Notes under the pieces: model-generated
What the model was told of the DNA's origin: nothing
The model's input: only the letters and a program-made list of their open reading frames with translations
Database searches by the model: none
Shown here: piece after piece, positions 15,262 through 54,205 of the stretch
Position numbering within the stretch: position 1 is the first letter of the stretch
How the letters are laid out: each line of letters starts with the position of its first letter
Translations under genes and position numbers: made by a program
Assembly: GCA_900073065.1 (NCBI GenBank)
Contig: FJOG01000035.1
Span: 41,723-105,722 of the forward strand
Direction of reading: 5' to 3'
DNA length: 64,000 nucleotides
From: Phialocephala subalpina
Lineage: Eukaryota > Ascomycota > Leotiomycetes > Helotiales > Mollisiaceae

Positions 15262-17059
15262 TTAGCAGCCTGCACTCATGGATTGCTCCATTTTAGGCGC
15301 TTGAAGCTCGCAATCTTGCTCTGCAATGCGGTGAAGTCCTCCGGGGAGAGGTGTAGTCAATCGTAGCTTTTCCGTGAGCTTTAGAACCGTCATATACTCG
15401 TTCTGGTCAACCAAGCCATTGGGGGCTTGATTGAAGAAACTAAGTACGAGGTCCAAAGCTCTTCGAGCATCATCCTGTGTCGGCGAGCTTGGAGCTGAAG
15501 AGCCAGGTGGTGATTGCAGACCAGTAATAGGAGTACCTGTCGATGGTGGTGCCATTGAGCCATTGCTGCTGCTGTGATGCAATGGAGGAGATGAGATGGC
15601 AGAGTCCATTCCAAATGGCGGCCCCATCTCGTGGATAGGAGAGTCCAAAGCTGACGAAGGTGCTGTAACAGGCATGTTGTACTTTGGTGTTAGTGGCTCA
15701 TTCGACTGCGAGGAGATGAACGATGGGTCAATTCCAAGCATAGGAAAAGTTTGGCTACGTGGTCGCTGGAAGCCATTTCCAGGTGGAGGCAATCGGGACT
15801 GTTGCGAGGGTAGCCACCCAGAACTGTCAGGTGAGAAAGCGAAGGGGCCAGTTGGACTTGTAGGTCCACCCGAAAATGAAGACGGATTGTTGTCCGTGAA
15901 AGCACTTGACAAGGACGTGGTACTTTGAGAGTTCGAATGCCGGTATCCATTGTTCTCCTGGCCAAAGTACCCGTTTGAGTTCTCGGATCTAAGGTCTTCG
16001 TCACTCTTGTTTGCTGATAATGGCGAGGGAGAGGGCAAGCCACTCGGTGATGTTGGAGAAATCCCATTTGGAGTTTGCGAAGTTGAACCTCCAGCTGAGT
16101 CCGGAGCCAATGGGTCCACCCGAAAATGAAGACGGATTGTTGTCCGTGAAAGCACTTGACAAGGACGTGGTACTTTGAGAGTTCGAATGCCGGTATCCAT
16201 TGTTCTCCTGGCCAAAGTACCCGTTTGAGTTCTCGGATCTAAGGTCTTCGTCACTCTTGTTTGCTGATAATGGCGAGGGAGAGGGCAAGCCACTCGGTGA
16301 TGTTGGAGAAATCCCATTTGGAGTTTGCGAAGTTGAACCTCCAGCTGAGTCCGGAGCCAATGGGTACGCTTGACAGGAGACAGGCTCCGATCTTCCGGGA
16401 AGAGATACTTCTCCCTTTGACGGAGGACCTTGGAGACAGTGCTAGAAAGCAAATTTTAGTATTGTAACGCGTCACATATAATCTAGAGCCATACCTTCGC
16501 TCAACACCAAACATTGCTATGATCCAGTTAGTGATATTCGAAGGTCAAAACCGCATCATTGCTTACCTCCAATTTCAGTCTGTTTTACAGACGGGTTCTC
16601 CTCGTGGTACTGGCACATTCGTCTTCGGTCATTGTCCGTAAGAGTCTTGCGTGGAGATGGTGTTGCGTGAATCGCTGGTAGCTTCGCGCCATTCCCTTTC
16701 ACCACCGGAGCTGATATCGGAGGAATTGCAACTGGCGGTGCTGAATAACTCGCTGGGTTTGTCAACAGACTGGGCCATGTCGGATTGCCAGGCATGATGA
16801 GGGGTAACAACTGCTGGTGGGTTGTGTGCGGCGGTGGAGGTTGTGGCATTCTCGGCGGGTTGTACGATTGCTCGTTTCCATTGTGTTGAAGCGGTTGCAT
16901 AAATTGAAAACCTGGATGTTCGTACATTGGCGATTGATGTTGCGAAGAATTGTAACTATGGCTGATATCTACCCATCCGTCGTTGGTCCCATAGTTGTTG
17001 TCGTGCGAGGCGTGGTGCTCGTGCTCCATCCCAATCTGCGCCATCATGGACTCGTGCAT
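15262..17059 (-). CDS. CENP-B/psq-type helix-turn-helix DNA-binding protein, rearranged
   Basis: Exons 17059-16567, 16516-16495 and 16441-15262 join in frame to 564 residues. Residues ~130-190 form a CENP-B N-terminal helix-turn-helix (LTDNDRRRMCQYHEENP, KQTEIGAMFGVERSTVSKVL, REKYLFPED). Relatives as I recall them continue after SPVKR with a second, CENP-B-type DNA-binding domain of roughly 100 residues, then an LAPD...GGSTSQTPNG linker. Here that second domain is missing. Directly after VKRT the frame enters one copy of a 250-bp tandem duplication in a foreign reading frame for ~83 codons, then reads the next copy in the proper frame (APDSAGGSTSQTPNG, LRSENSNGYFG) to a normal C-terminus. The frame stays open only because 250 is one more than a multiple of three. 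Either the gene is rearranged and possibly impaired, or the assembly is wrong here. The likely role is a nuclear DNA-binding regulator; targets unknown. Confidence 0.75.
15863..16365 (+). repeat. Exact 250-bp tandem duplication inside a coding exon
   Basis: The segments 15863-16115 and 16113-16365 are identical base for base at an offset of 250. The copies overlap by GGT, which looks like a junction microhomology. The duplication lies inside the last exon of the CENP-B-type gene. Zero divergence implies a very recent event or an assembly artefact. Confidence 0.97.
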
Positions 17060-35791: not shown

Positions 35792-38700
35792 ATGGACCCA
35801 AATCACCCAGAATTGCAGGACAAGCTGCAAGAGCTTGAACATGAGCTGGAAGTGAGTGGCAATGTGTTCGTTCATTGGAGTTCCATTTCATGCTCTATCG
35901 CGTGCGCCAATGTATCTTCAGCAGTGGGATATTTGCAAATGCAACACTTGATGAAGTTTGACTAACGATACCATTTCAGGAGGGGGACATCACAGAGAAA
36001 GGGTAAGATGACTATTTATTTCTGCGAGAAGTCTGCGCTGCTGCTATGGACTGTGGTTCTAACCATCTATTGCAGATACCAAAAACGGCGAACAATGCTT
36101 CTATCCCAGTACCTTGGCGCCTCAGCTGTTGCAAACGATCTGAAGGGCTTACGAATACACTCTCCTGATGATACCTTACACCCTTCGAACGATGGTTCTC
36201 GCAGTGCTTCACTTGCTGCGCTCAATGCGAACTCAAGGGACTATGCTGAGAACTATGGCCCGAGGCCAGAAGTACCACCTCAATCGCCAGCGAGAACAGG
36301 TTCTGCAGGAAGATTAGACACAATTGGCAGCGAATATCCGAGTTTTGGAAACAACAGGGCTCAGGAGGGTGGATTTACATATGCCGGACCACCATCACAA
36401 CTGCGTTTGGGCGTCCACAATCCAACACAAAGGAAGTCTTATGGGCAAGAAACCTTTCTGCCAGTCACACCCATATCTGGAGGAAATTCTACGGATCGAA
36501 GCGGGACGATGGCGTCCATTTCAAGGTCGAATTATGCCTTTAACCCAGCTCACCAAGCCGGGTACGTTGAGCATCAAGGTGACCCATACGAGAGCCGTTC
36601 AGGGACTATGATGGACTCGCACGGTACGATGTTGGGAGAGTCACAGCAGGGCTATTTTTCCGACTTTGCTGGGCAGCAAGGCTTTGATAATGGGCCTCAC
36701 AACTCGTACGGCGGTCCACACAGATATTCCTCGAGCGATGCTTTCTCGCCCACCGCCGCCATGGCTCCACCGATGTTGACCACAAGCGATCTTCCGCCAC
36801 CAGCTGCACTTGAATACCAGATGCCCCTCGAACCTCGGGACGTTCCCTTTGCTGTGTACGATCCCCACGATGGGAACGTTCCAATGTCGAGGTTCGACAA
36901 TATCGCCGCAGTGCTAAGACACCGAAGTAAAGCAAACTCCAAGAGTACTGCATATTGGGTATTGGATAGCAAAGGCAAAGAAATTGCCTCCATCACCTGG
37001 GATAAGCTCACCAGCAGAGCAGAGAAGGTTGCACAGGTGATCAGGGACAAAAGTTCATTGTACCGCGGAGACCGAGTTGCTTTGATCTACCGAGATACCG
37101 AGATCATCGACTTTGCTATTGCCCTGCTTGGTTGCTTCATTGCCGGAGTGGTTGCAGTACCCATCAATGATCTCGAAGATTACGCGAAGCTCAATCTAAT
37201 TTTGACCTCTACCCAAGCACATCTTGCCTTAACTACTGATAATAATCTTAAAGCATTTCAACGCGACATAACAACTCAGAAGCTTAACTGGCCTCGAGGG
37301 GTGGAATGGTGGAAGACGAATGAATTCGGCAGCTTCCATCCAAAGAAGAAGGATGACTCCCCAGCTTTGCAAGTACCTGATCTTGCTTATATCGAGTTCT
37401 CCCGTGCACCCACTGGAGATTTGCGAGGTGTCGTGATGAGCCATCGGACCATCATGCATCAAATGGCTTGTTTGAGTGCCATTTTCTCAACTGTGCCATC
37501 TGGCAAAGGCGATACCTTCCATTCACAATTGAGGGATAAAAACGGCCGGTTGATGGCCGGTAGTGGGAACAATGGCGAAATTTTGCTATCCTATCTGGAT
37601 CCACGGCAGGGCATTGGCATGATTCTGGGCGTCTTACTCACCGTCTATGGAGGCCATACCACAGTCTGGATGGAGAATAAAGCTGTGGAAACACCCGGCC
37701 TCTATGCCCATCTCATCACGAAATACAAAGCTACGTTGATGCTTGCAGACTATCCAGGGCTCAAGCGAGCGGCGTACAACTACCAGCAAGATCCTATGAC
37801 CACGAGAAACTTTAAAAAGGGCCAGGAACCCAACTTTCAGCATGTCAAGCTGTGTTTAATAGACGCTCTTACCGTGGACAGCGAATTTCATGAAGTGCTA
37901 GCTGATAGATGGCTTCGTCCGATGCGAAACCCCCGAGCTCGAGAACTGGTCGCACCAATGTTGTGCCTTCCAGAACATGGAGGCATGGTTATTAGCATGC
38001 GCGATTGGCTCGGCGGAGAAGAGCGAATGGGCTGCCCTCTGAAGCTAGACATGTCGGATGGACACTCCGTTGAGGAAAAGGAGGACAAGGACAAGGAAAA
38101 GGAGAAAGAGCCGTCAACCAGTAATGGGTTTGCTAGTCTCATCGGCGGTGGAACGACTGCCCCAAGCCAACAAGAGGAGCGGACAGAGCTGAGTGAGGTT
38201 CTCTTGGACCGAGAAGCACTGAAAACAAACGAAGTTGTCGTTGTTGCAATAGGAGAAGAAGCTCGCAAAAAGGCTAGTGGTGAGCCGGGCTGCGTAAGAG
38301 TTGGCGCTTTTGGGTTCCCAATTCCCGATGCGACTCTAGCTGTTGTTGACCCAGAAACTGGATTGCTCGCTACCCCTCACTCTGTTGGTGAGATCTGGGT
38401 TGATTCACCTTCACTATCCGGAGGCTTCTGGGCACTACCGAAACACACGGAACAAATTTTCCACGCTCGGCCGTACAAATTTGCTCCTGGAGACCCTACA
38501 CCAATGATGGTAGAGCCTGAGTTCCTACGGACTGGTTTACTTGGTACCGTCATTGAAGGGAAGATATTTGTCCTAGGCTTATACGAAGATCGAATCCGCC
38601 AGAAAGTCGAGTGGGTCGAGCATGGTCATGAAATTGCGGAGCATCGATACTTCTTTGTGCAACACATCATCGTCAGTATCATGAAAAATGTTCCAAAGAT

Positions 38701-41659
38701 CTACGACTGCTCCGCCTTCGACGTTTTTGTTAATGATGAGCATTTGCCGATAGTATTGCTGGAATCCCAGTCTGCATCCACTGCTCCAGCGACGTCTGGT
38801 GGTCCACCTCGACAATTGGACACAGCTTTGCTTGATTCGTTATCAGAGAGATGCATGGAAGTCTTGATGCAGGAGCATCATTTGCGTGTGTACTGCGTGA
38901 TGATCACAGCTCCGAACACTCTGCCAAAGGTGTTAAAGAATGGCCGAAGAGAAATCGGTAACATGCTTTGTCGACGAGAGTTTGATCTTGGAAATCTGCC
39001 ATGTGTGCATGTCAAGTTTGGTGTCGAGAGGGCAGTATTGAATCTCCCAATTGGCGTGGATCCTATTGGCGGTATCTGGTCACCACTTGCGTCTCAAGCA
39101 CGAGAGGACATTCTCTCACCCGGTGACAAGCAATACTCCGGTATTGATCGTCGAGAAGTGGTCATCGATGACCGCACTTCGACCCCTCTCAATAACTTCT
39201 CTAGCATTGTCGACCTGCTCCAATGGAGAGTTGCACGCCAAGCTGAGGAATTGTCGTACTGCACAATTGACGGCCGAGGCAAGGAAGGTAAAGGTATCAC
39301 GTGGAAGAAGTTCGATACAAAAGTGGCTGCTGTTGCCATGTATCTGAAGAATAAGGTGAAGATCCGAGCAGGGGACCACCTGATTCTCATGTACACGCAC
39401 TCTGAAGACTTCGTCTATGCAGTACATGCCTGCTTCTGTCTAGGAGCAACAGCGATACCAATGGCTCCATTGGATCAGAATCGATTGAATGAGGATGCGC
39501 CAGCATATCTGCATATGGTTGCTGACTACGGAGTGCGTGCAGTCTTGGTCAATCAAGACGTTGATCACCTCATGAAGCAGAAGGCCGTTTCGCAGCACGT
39601 CAAGCAGTCTGCTCAAGTATTGAAGGTCTCGGTTCCGAGCATTTACAATACGACAAAACCGCCGAAGCAGAATAGCGGATGCAGAGATCTAGGACTGACC
39701 ATGCAACCAACATGGGTTCAGCCTGGATATCCTGTCCTGGTATGGACATATTGGACTCCGGATCAACGACGTATCGCCGTGCAGCTAGGTCACGACACGA
39801 TCATGGGTATGTGCAAAGTGCAGAAGGAGACTTGCCAGATGACCAGCTCAAGACCGGTACTTGGCTGCGTCCGAAGTACCAGCGGTCTCGGGTTCATTCA
39901 TACATGTCTGATGGGAGTTTTCGTCGGCGCGCCTACTTACCTAGTTTCTCCTGTCGAGTTTGCACAGAATCCGGTCTCCTTGTTCTTGACACTCTCAAGA
40001 TATAAGATCAAGGATACATACGCAACGCCTCAAATGCTCGATCACGCCATGGCTATCATGCCTGGGAAAGGATTCCAATTGCATGAATTGAAGAACATGA
40101 TGATCTCCGCAGAGGGTCGTCCTCGTGTGGACGTTTTCCAGAAAGTCCGTCTACACTTCGCACAGACTGGTCTTGATAGGACAGCCATCAACACCATTTA
40201 TTCTCACGTCCTCAATCCTATGATCGCATCGCGCTCCTATATGTGTATCGAGCCTATCGAGCTCTGGCTTGGAACGCAGGCCCTCCGACGAGGAATGATA
40301 TACCCAGTCGATCCAGAATCAGAACCCAAGTCTCTCCTGGTCCAAGATTCCGGCATGGTGCCAGTGTCAACGCAGATTGCGATTGTAAACCCAGAGAGTA
40401 GGACGCTCTGCTACGAAGGTGAGTATGGAGAGATCTGGGTCGAGTCTGAGGCTTGTGTACGGGCGTTCTATGGCTCAAAGGATCCTTTCGATGCGGAGAG
40501 ATTCGATGGGCGCACTCTCGATGGTGATCCAAATGTACAGTACATCCGTACAGGAGATCTCGGATTCTTGCATAACGTCAGCAGGCCTATTGGCCCTAAC
40601 GGTGCCCAAGTCGATATGCAGGTCCTCTTCGTCTTGGGCAATATTGGCGAGACTTTCGAAATCAACGGGCTCAGTCACTTTCCAATGGACATCGAATACT
40701 CAGTCGAGAAGTGCCACCGGAACATTGTACCCGGAGGCTGGTAAGTATCCAATCTAGATGATCTAAAGACCAAGCCAAGCTGACGTCCAAACAGTGCCGT
40801 CTTCCAGGCTGGCGGGCTTATTGTGGTACTAGTTGAGGTCGGCAGGAAGGCCTACCTTGCATCGATTGTTCCGGTCATTGTCAATGCCATCCTCAACGAG
40901 CATCAAATCGTGGTCGATATTGTTGCATTTGTTAATAGAGGCGATTTCCCTCGTTCCCGACTCGGAGAAAAACAACGCGGCAAGATCCTGGCAAGCTGGG
41001 TCACGCGCAAGATGAGAACGATGGCACAGTTCGGCATCCGAGATCCTGAATCCGGCCTCTCGGACGTGACCGAAACGATGGAGCCTAGAAGTGGCATTGC
41101 GAGCCTGAGGAACAGCAGCGTGATGGCAAGTAGCCTTCGAAATGTGGAATCTGCCCCGCAAATAATTGAAGAGCAACGTGAGCTTGAAAGACAGCAGGTC
41201 GGAGCACAGAATTCCTTTGCTCCATTACCAACCGGCATCTCCGAGATGCCAGCGCAGAATTACGACGACTCGGTCCTCGGATCGCCTAGGGGCGAGAATG
41301 GAACATCGCAAAAGAGCGATGATACCCCCACAGATGCTAGGAAACACCACTTTGAACTCCCAGCGGATGATTACGATCCAAGCAAGACCGACTTCGCTTT
41401 TGCAGACGGTACAGAAGAATATAACATTCCAGGATTTGCAACAAGTGAACCTCCTCAGGTGCCACCACCCCGAATTGGGCCAAAACCCGGTGCCACACCC
41501 CAGATCAATCTTCCTGCAGTAGAGGGCCGCGAAGGAGATTTGTGGAGCCTCCCGAGCCAACAGACTCGCGGTGGCTTGAGGGTGCAGAACGCCTCAAATG
41601 ACGATGATGAGGACTGGCGGAAGGATGCAATCATGCATATGAAGCTTGCAGGACGATGA
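35792..41659 (+). CDS. CPS1: CPS1/DIP2-type protein with two adenylate-forming domains
   Basis: Exons 35792-35851, 35980-36002, 36076-40740 and 40795-41659 join in frame to 1870 residues. The N-terminus is a DMAP1-binding domain (LQELEHELEEGDITEKGYQK). After a disordered stretch come two AMP-binding (ANL) domains at about residues 290-985 and 1065-1580. Domain 1 has FSRAPTGDLRGVVMSHRT and RTGLLGTV; domain 2 has VLVWTYWTPDQRRIAVQLGH and IRTGDLGFL. The typical P-loop SGTTG-type motif is degenerate in both, as is usual for DIP2 relatives. The tail (~1660-1870) is polar. Fungal CPS1 is linked to virulence and stress tolerance, and animal/yeast DIP2 to lipid regulation; the reaction here is inferred by family. 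Length and domain order are complete. Confidence 0.9.
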
Positions 41660-50788: not shown

Positions 50789-52561
50789 ATGGCATTGCAG
50801 CCACTAGCAACATATGCAAGGCCGCGTATTGTGCAATCCCAGGCATTGCCACGAGTATTCCTTTCGCGATCACAACCATCGTGCATATGCCGCTGCCACA
50901 ACTCCCGACTCTTCTCTTCATCTGCCAGACTATACCGGCAGAAACCCGAATATAAGGAATCCTTCAGCACAAGATTAAGGAGAGCGTTGGGCGAGACCAA
51001 GATTAAATGGTATCCAATACCAGTCGGCTTGGGCATTGGCTTTCTTGGGCTGGTTCAATTCCTTCGAATCAACGAGCGGGAAAATGCGAGAAGACGTGAG
51101 GAGGAATTGGAGGATGATGGATGTGTGAGGATGGTGGGAGGTGATGGAGAACAAGGGAGCCGACCAAAGAGGAGAGAAAGGATTAGACCTACAGGACCAT
51201 GGTTTGTCTCTTGTCACCTCTCTCATATTGAGTCTAATAAGTGTCAGGCAAGTCCAAGTTATGTCGACATTACCTCTGAAAGCCATGTCAAGGATTTGGG
51301 GAAAGTTCAACGAGCTCGAGATACCCTATTATTTGCGTGTACCTGGTTTCAAGCTGTATTCCTTTATATTCGGTGTTAAGTATGCTGAACAACAGAACAT
51401 ATTATACCATCTCAGCTAAGCATCTTTAGTCTTTCCGAAGTATCAGAGCCTGATCTTCATGTATACCCAAATCTCGCATCTTTCTTCTACCGCACCCTGA
51501 AACCGGGTGCTCGCCCTCTCGATCCCAACCAGAATGCTCTCGTCTCTCCGTCCGACGGCCGTGTTCTTCAGTTTGGTACAATAGAAAGCGGGGAGGTGGA
51601 ACAAGTCAAGGGGATGACGTACAGTCTTGATGCCTTACTTGGTACCAGCTCGCCAGGAACATCGCCAAATCCAGCTGATCCAGCAAGAATATTTGCGTCC
51701 AAGAATGATGCTTCTCAACAGAGCCCTGCCTCAACGAGAGACGGAGACGAAGAGGTCATCAAGCACGATGAGGAGTTTGCCCGGGTCAATGGCATTTCGT
51801 ATACACTTCCAAATCTCTTCTCGGGACCACCCCAAGGACAACGAAGAAAGGCCGCAGATGCATCAACTACACCCAAGGCAGCTTCAGAAGCTGAAGTCCG
51901 AGCAGATCTTGTTTTGGGAGAAAAACCTTGGTATTCCCGACTCACTTCGGAAAACAGGACTGCTTTGTACTACGTTGTCATCTATTTAGCACCTGGCGAC
52001 TACCACCGCTTCCACTCGCCATGTGCTTGGGTAGTAGAGAAGCGAAGACATTTCGCTGGCGAACTATACAGCGTTTCACCATATTTACAACGGACTTTAC
52101 CAGGACTATTCGTTCTCAATGAGAGAGTCGTGCTTTTGGGACGATGGCGATGGGGCTTCTTCTCCTACACTCCCGTCGGTGCAACGAATGTCGGCTCAAT
52201 CAAAATTAACTTCGATCGAGAACTTCGGACAAATTCCTTAACGACTGATACCGCAGCTGATCGAGCAGCTGAGGAAGCCTCCGCACGAGGTGAGCCATAT
52301 AGTGGATTTGCAGAGGCTAGCTATGAAAACGCCAGTCCTATCCTACACGGCCATCCCCTGAAAAGAGGCGAAGAGATGGGAGGATTCCAGCTTGGCAGCA
52401 CGGTCGTACTTGTATTCGAAGCACCGAAGGGCCAGAGACCCAGTCTCGACGAAGGCTGGATGGGCGAAAAAACGAAGAGAAAGGGTGGATGGAACTGGGG
52501 TATCGAAAAGGGACAGAAGGTCAAGATGGGGCAAGCCATTGGATGGGTTGACGAATCGTGA
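50789..52561 (+). CDS. PSD1: Mitochondrial phosphatidylserine decarboxylase
   Basis: Exons 50789-51201, 51248-51379 and 51430-52561 join in frame (GPW-QVQVMS; FIFGV-NLSEVS) to 558 residues. The N-terminus is basic and Ser/Arg-rich (SRLFSSSARLYR), a mitochondrial targeting signal, followed by an inner-membrane segment at about 75-95 (PVGLGIGFLGLVQFL). Conserved PSD motifs are SPSDGRVLQFG, YHRFHSPCAWVV and RHFAGELYSV. LGST at about residue 502 is the self-cleavage site that creates the pyruvoyl cofactor and the small alpha subunit. The enzyme makes phosphatidylethanolamine from phosphatidylserine in mitochondria. A polar insertion at about 245-310 is typical of fungal forms. The catalytic Asp, His and Ser are present. 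Confidence 0.95.
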
Positions 52562-53757: not shown

Positions 53758-54205
53758 TCAGATACAACGTCCATTTATATCCCGCTTGGTGTTTGAGGCA
53801 CATGCATACAACTCGGCCGGCTCACGCTCCTTGATACATCGACCGCTCACGTCCCTCTTAGTGTTCGACGCGCAGGCGTACAACTCAGCAGGCTCTGGTT
53901 CAGGCTCAGCTTCGCGGTCTTTGATACAACGTCCATTGATGTCTCGCTTGGTGTTAGAAGCGCAGGCGTAGAGCTCAGCTGGTTCTGCCTCACGTTCCTT
54001 GATACAGCGACCATTGACGTCTCTCTTGGTATTCGAGGCACAGGCGTAGAGCTCAGCGGGCTCGCGGGTGTTCAGGTCTGGACCAGTCAGCGTTGGTTTG
54101 GGGACAGGATAATCCGAGCAATGTACCCGTGTTTGGAGATGGGATTGCGGCAGCACTGGTCACGGCCGGAAGAGCAGCCAGTGCAGCGAGAGTCTTGAAT
54201 TGCAT
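53758..54205 (-). CDS. Secreted four-repeat peptide precursor with Kex2-type sites
   Basis: Exons 54205-54127 and 54077-53758 join in frame (PSPNT-DLNTRE) to 132 residues; the 49-bp intron has branch GCTGAC. Residues 1-18 are a signal peptide (MQFKTLAALAALPAVTSA). The rest is four tandem repeats (54066-53995, 53994-53917, 53916-53827, 53826-53761), each with ELYACASNTKRD then GRCI: two cysteines in C-x11-C with a KR dibasic site between them. Repeats are joined by K-E/D-R followed by spacers EP, EAEP, EAEPEPEP and EP, which are runs of dipeptides a Ste13-type aminopeptidase could trim. Thirteen residues are invariant in all four copies although almost every codon varies silently. It fits Kex2-processed repeat secretory peptides; the peptide itself is not an alpha-pheromone sequence I know. 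Function unknown; a non-cleaved secreted protein is the alternative. Confidence 0.85.

Follow-up and report, generated by a model that had tools for sequence, protein, structure and literature searches.

Positions 54205-53758 on the minus strand of the Phialocephala subalpina stretch analysed here encode a 132-aa precursor in which four tandem repeats each place a KR dipeptide between two cysteines. Judged from its sequence, the precursor is an odd new form of Kex2-processed repeat protein (KEP), whose cysteine loop contains a dibasic site and whose repeats are bounded by a single Arg. Our full reading of the gene, which is distinct from the alpha-pheromone gene, is that it encodes a secreted, Kex2-processed repeat precursor that would release a small peptide with two cysteines in roughly four copies, each cut at the inner KR as well; in our view this reading has an even chance of being right. 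KEPs, including some with Ste13 signatures outside mating, are already known (PMC6339444, PMC7329392). Against the at least three near-identical repeats by which they are recognised, the precursor has four, with a Kex2 site between repeats.

The window, which is the whole 64,000-nt stretch of DNA that was analysed, corresponds to C82:41723-105722, and the genome searched was the 68.1-Mb assembly in 119 contigs. The gene and its convergent neighbour are laid out as follows (P0001 and P0005 are relatives of the precursor):

54127..54205, minus strand: exon 1, with the signal peptide region (MQFKTLAALAALPAVTSAAA) and a short linker; same starting Met as P0001 and P0005
54078..54126, minus strand: intron of 49 nt (GTACAT...CGCTGAC...CCAG); junction as in P0001
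53758..54077, minus strand: exon 2, holding all four repeats and the stop codon
54058..54066, minus strand: boundary Arg of LNTR and spacer EP, ahead of repeat 1
54001..54057, minus strand: repeat 1, AELYACASNTKRDVNGRCI
53980..53994, minus strand: boundary Arg of IKER and spacer EAEP, ahead of repeat 2
53923..53979, minus strand: repeat 2, AELYACASNTKRDINGRCI
53890..53916, minus strand: boundary Arg of IKDR and spacer EAEPEPEP, ahead of repeat 3
53833..53889, minus strand: repeat 3, AELYACASNTKRDVSGRCI
53818..53826, minus strand: boundary Arg of IKER and spacer EP, ahead of repeat 4
53761..53817, minus strand: repeat 4, AELYACASNTKRDINGRCI, abutting the stop codon
53039..53674, plus strand: convergent neighbour gene of 211 aa, with 250 database matches, many in Pezizomycotina

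The start codon (ATG at 54205) and the stop codon (TGA at 53760-53758) bound the gene exactly where the original prediction had placed it. Without splicing, the frame from this ATG runs into a stop (ORF 54286-54053). The predicted 49-bp intron, with a GTACAT donor and a CTGAC branch-point-like motif just before the CAG acceptor, joins the frames. It is not the only open choice: for introns of 45-120 nt, six donor-acceptor pairs leave the frame open to the stop codon, as do longer introns that use this donor. We prefer the 49-nt intron over these other choices because it agrees with P0001 from Halenospora varia, whose protein (AAAIPADLNAREPAELYGC) matches the spliced product (AAAIPSPNTDLNTREPAELYAC) across the junction (DLNAREPAELY versus DLNTREPAELY). 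P0005 has extra residues at this point, apparently translated from the same intron left unspliced. By eye, the N-terminus has a Lys at position 4, a hydrophobic stretch at 5-15 and a TSA/AAA cleavage context, and it resembles the start of both P0001 and P0005. In-frame ATGs upstream of 54205 (ORF from 54286) would prepend a non-hydrophobic leader.

The repeat core reads x-E-L-Y-x-C-A-S...KR-D...G-R-C-I. The inner KR occurs in all four repeats, and each repeat is preceded by an X-A/X-P dipeptide spacer (the Ste13 signature) with an Arg immediately before it. Four repeats, a KR in each and the spacers EP, EAEP, EAEPEPEP and EP had all been described from the letters alone, and the description proved correct. 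The 19-residue units vary only at position 14 (V/I) and position 15 (N/S), and their DNA is 74 to 86% identical. More than one codon is used in 13 of the 17 invariant codon columns, so that the earlier statement that nearly every codon differs silently is roughly right. Omega, which is rough because the units are short, came to 0.024-0.034 for the three pairs in which dS was finite; in the other three, dS was saturated. For each of the six pairs, no more than 2 of 5000 simulations of random mutation were as low in amino-acid changes as observed. The few amino-acid changes beside many silent ones indicate that the repeats are old, that they are held by selection on the peptide and that they are no recent copies. 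The selection on the peptide that had been proposed is thus supported by the comparison of the repeats.

Among 5.8 billion proteins, we found five relatives of the precursor, and the layout is common to all five. Two of these come from Halenospora varia (Helotiales, Solenopeziaceae) and Acephala macrosclerotiorum (Helotiales, Mollisiaceae). A profile search built from five sequences, with scoring limited to the 7993 candidates that had the most words in common, returned the same five. The recurrence of the family in other fungi argues that the precursor is not a product of chance; there are few relatives, which do not count as independent of each other, and the family is seemingly lineage-restricted. 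In the genome, searches with the repeat and with P0005 gave only the precursor gene at E <= 0.001, and one extra match had E 0.9. The Acephala relative P0003 (BDZ45DRAFT_738046) carries the repeat-precursor tail behind a FAD-binding-like start, for which the Pfam matches were weak and below cut-off. Its public gene model is probably a fusion and the real gene mis-annotated.

The closest named relative of the convergent neighbour gene also comes from Acephala, in an entry that represents three contigs with a maximum length of 502,059 bp. The Acephala precursor relative is likewise listed with a 502,059-bp contig, and we read this agreement as conserved synteny of the precursor and its neighbour. 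Together with the type of alpha-factor in the genome, the synteny would put the fungus close to Mollisiaceae. The surroundings in the window are of a housekeeping kind, with a DIP2-like AMP-binding protein with a Mug62 domain (35966-41656) and a phosphatidylserine decarboxylase (51389-52558). Elsewhere in the window, at 15863-16365, there is an exact 250-bp tandem duplication (250/250 identical, not a multiple of three) within the minus-strand open frame 15265-16455, which is either a recent frame-shifting event or an assembly artefact.

A hydrophobic N-terminus, tandem two-cysteine repeats, Arg-ended Kex2-type sites and X-A/X-P dipeptidase signatures are all features of alpha-factor precursors, and on these grounds the gene might code for a mating pheromone, with Ste2 recognising its product as an additional or divergent alpha-factor. 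We hold this to be highly unlikely, because a typical alpha-factor gene exists elsewhere in the genome. It lies at C51:3237970-3238674, unlinked to the precursor gene on C82, and encodes seven RCGY[PR]GQPC repeats. We located it by a pattern made from the repeat named in PMC10569646, where RCGYPGQPCG is reported from Ploettnerulaceae, Drepanopezizaceae and Mollisiaceae. A GQ or PG turn, present in the vast majority of alpha-factor repeats (PMC10569646) and in those of this genome, is absent from the two-cysteine core, which is instead x-E-L-Y-x-C-(9 to 12)-C with an inner KR, and the two precursors gave no alignment beyond chance (best E 0.15). Boundaries with a single Arg also differ in frequency, with four of four in the precursor versus one of seven repeats in the alpha-factor. 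STE2 had one match in the genome. The Trp-led WC...GQ.C pattern, which is an alpha-pheromone motif, had 6 exact matches in the genome, none of those examined being in a repeat gene, and 208 when one mismatch was allowed. The alpha-pheromone identity was rejected on the strength of the genome's own seven-repeat gene on C51, which upholds the original prediction that the core is not that of the C-xxx-GQ-x-C pheromones. The alpha-factor precursor on C51 itself has an additional divergent copy (RCDMGSCFEAKR) inside a long spacer.

A secreted repeat precursor with a signal peptide, Kex2 sites and a Tyr in the core also has the layout of dikaritins (ustiloxin and phomopsin type), and the original prediction had considered a RiPP-like product. 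For a UstYa-type precursor that would yield a cyclised, oxidised peptide, UstYa (PF11807, DUF3328) gave 56 exon-level matches on 23 contigs of the genome, and none of them is on C82. In addition, no Ste13 processing is predicted for the ustiloxin and phomopsin precursors in PMC6339444, whereas our precursor has Ste13 signatures, and it has cysteines as well. We found no RiPP tailoring gene in a Pfam scan of 20 window ORFs, which were drawn from 66 selected among the 191 open frames of at least 90 aa. With no UstYa match on the contig of the precursor, we rejected this identity, which we hold to be highly improbable, and a UstYa-modified RiPP found no support. The 56 UstYa matches suggest that other parts of the genome contain many possible RiPP clusters.

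Other family searches gave no firmer identity. The Pfam CC domain PF04942 scored 39.3 bits against a cut-off of 20.6, a sum over four stretches of which the best covers profile positions 5-19 of 34. We take this domain to comprise four cysteines including a CC pair; as the matches are partial stretches and the precursor has no CC pair, we regard it as a look-alike. The GBP/PSP peptide family PF02425 stayed below its cut-off of 25 (8.2 bits for the precursor, 12.3 for P0001), and NCBIfam gave no match over cut-off for three proteins. A PDB profile search returned nothing up to E 1, and a single PDB match of a 24-residue unit (E 3.4) was taken as chance. The structure model of exon 2 (mean pLDDT 55, pTM 0.16) was put to no use.

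To compare processing across the family, we used the 17 two-cysteine repeats of six precursors, leaving out one Cys-less degenerate repeat of P0002. An Arg lies at most 14 residues upstream in 16 of the 17, the exception being the first repeat of P0005. Five of these 16 upstream sites are dibasic (KR, found in P0001, P0002 and P0005, whose repeat boundaries are mostly of this type), and every boundary in our precursor is a single Arg (LNTR, IKER, IKDR). All 11 non-dibasic sites (LNTR, LNAR, IKER, IKDR, VDAR, VEER, LAAR) have an aliphatic P4 residue. This agrees with the extended Kex2 motif, in which an aliphatic residue stands at P4 and R, T, P, E or I is allowed at P2 (PMC8528282); the Asp of IKDR and the Ala of LNAR, VDAR and LAAR lie outside these P2 alternatives. 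In the alpha-factor of this genome, K[AVL]KR with Lys at P4 follows six of the seven repeats, and thus an aliphatic P4 cannot be obligatory in this fungus. The first alpha-factor repeat is followed by VKAR, which ends in a single Arg and has an aliphatic P4; LA-EP-EA-NA comes next, before the following core.

Cutting in silico after the Arg and stripping X-A/X-P pairs left an x-E-[LF]-Y N-terminus in 15 of the 16 testable repeats and D-V-E-L-Y in one. Two spacers are empty, and 13 of the 14 others are fully removable. Counted as distinct spacers, seven of eight are removable, a number that none of 20000 shuffles reached. In the spacers EAVADP and IPLPKAEP, the X residue changes while an A or P stands at each second place. 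In sequence terms, the dipeptide spacers and the boundary Arg are evidently under constraint. Peptides ending at a single Arg, together with Ste13-type trimming, are described for mushroom KEPs in a yeast host, Pichia (PMC9769878). In the genome, we found one gene that combines a subtilase with a proprotein-convertase P domain, as well as one DPPIV_N match; they are candidates to process both the precursor and the alpha-factor. We are fairly confident that a Kex2 cut at the boundary Arg and Ste13-type trimming would jointly shape the product. The alpha-factor-like architecture originally proposed, with Kex2 and a Ste13-type enzyme, is supported.

The inner KR leaves more room for interpretation. 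KR|D is of the classic type cut by Kex2. The KR is retained in 16 of the 17 two-cysteine repeats, over cysteine loops that range from 9 to 12 residues. In P0004, the DP and DA that come after the inner KR are themselves dipeptidase signatures. We lean slightly towards a Kex2 cut at the inner KR as well, which would leave two chains held by a disulphide. If the inner KR were instead left uncut, with boundary cleavage and dipeptidase trimming alike, the product would be a single-chain disulphide hairpin of 19 residues in which KR is a binding feature. Such a hairpin fits with the Arg found directly ahead of the second cysteine in 17 of 17 counted repeats. It also fits with the one Acephala repeat in which EQ replaces the KR and the loop is kept, from which we conclude that an inner cut would not be essential for every copy. 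The inner sites, moreover, match the extended Kex2 motif more poorly than the boundary sites, with an aliphatic P4 in 2 of 16 only, a point weakened by the alpha-factor KR, whose P4 is non-aliphatic after six of seven repeats. Given the retention of KR over loops of different length, we regard the hairpin as possible but doubtful.

In the precursor, P0003 and P0004, the inner sites are the sole KR sites in or between repeats, and since their repeats hold no other classic dibasic site, a strict dibasic rule would cut there only. Kex2 cleavage at the inner KR alone would release straddling products of the form D[IV][NS]GRCI-K[ED]R-spacer-AELYACASNT. It would fail to explain why the spacers differ by removable dipeptides behind an Arg, it would leave the boundary KR of some relatives without a reason, and two end half-products would go to waste. 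As the dipeptide run would be buried in the product, we judge this the least attractive of the three product readings, and an improbable one. The KR boundaries in relatives, together with the single Arg and aliphatic P4 here, make unit peptides with an x-E-L-Y N-terminus likelier. The KR between the cysteines had been noted as an odd point that would force either peptides straddling repeats or two disulphide-held chains; the first consequence is no longer forced, and the second is the one to which we incline. That the product is an uncut repeat protein, such as a wall or surface protein, is very unlikely in view of the constraint on spacers and boundary Arg, even if processing may be poor.

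Under the two-chain reading that we prefer, the two cysteines of each repeat would pair up in the ER, and Kex2 would cleave behind the boundary Arg. A Ste13-type dipeptidyl aminopeptidase would then remove the X-A/X-P pairs and halt at A-E-L-Y, which has E in second place. The exposed KR|D in the 11-residue disulphide loop would also be cut by Kex2, with carboxypeptidase trimming to follow. The result would be the chains AELYACASNT and D[IV][NS]GRCI joined by one disulphide, with KE or KD staying on three copies. The product may work outside the cell, as a signal either for the fungus or for its environment; this extracellular role is a guess from the architecture of the precursor, which is what makes us favour it. 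Taken as a whole, two cuts per unit to give a two-chain peptide (about 10 and 7-9 residues) of miniature insulin-like layout, as a second Helotiales signal beside alpha-factor, is a tentative proposal to which we give somewhat less than an even chance.

Among known systems, the non-mating KEPs of Basidiomycota and Rhizophagus likewise combine a pheromone-like architecture with an unrelated core (PMC6339444, PMC9769878). Unlike them, the precursor has a cysteine pair that encloses a dibasic site, and the main text of PMC9769878 contains neither "cysteine" nor "disulfide". The K1 killer toxin of yeast also consists of disulphide-held chains cut by Kex2; it is, in contrast, a 20.6-kDa heterodimer without a precursor of short-peptide repeats (PMC13211469), and we claim no sequence relation. 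In the literature searched, the supplementary tables of the KEP surveys aside, no paper was found for the core strings of the family, nor was one found for lineage terms combined with Kex2.

If the boundary Arg is the true end of the unit, survey rules that equate the peptide with the stretch from one dibasic site to the next would get such precursors wrong. Few of the peptides that fungi derive from repeats have, to our knowledge, a known function. This precursor gives sharp and cheap predictions, namely an AELYAC N-terminus, one or two chains and a need for Kex2 and a dipeptidase, and it sets a pheromone-like architecture apart from the mating pheromone inside one genome.
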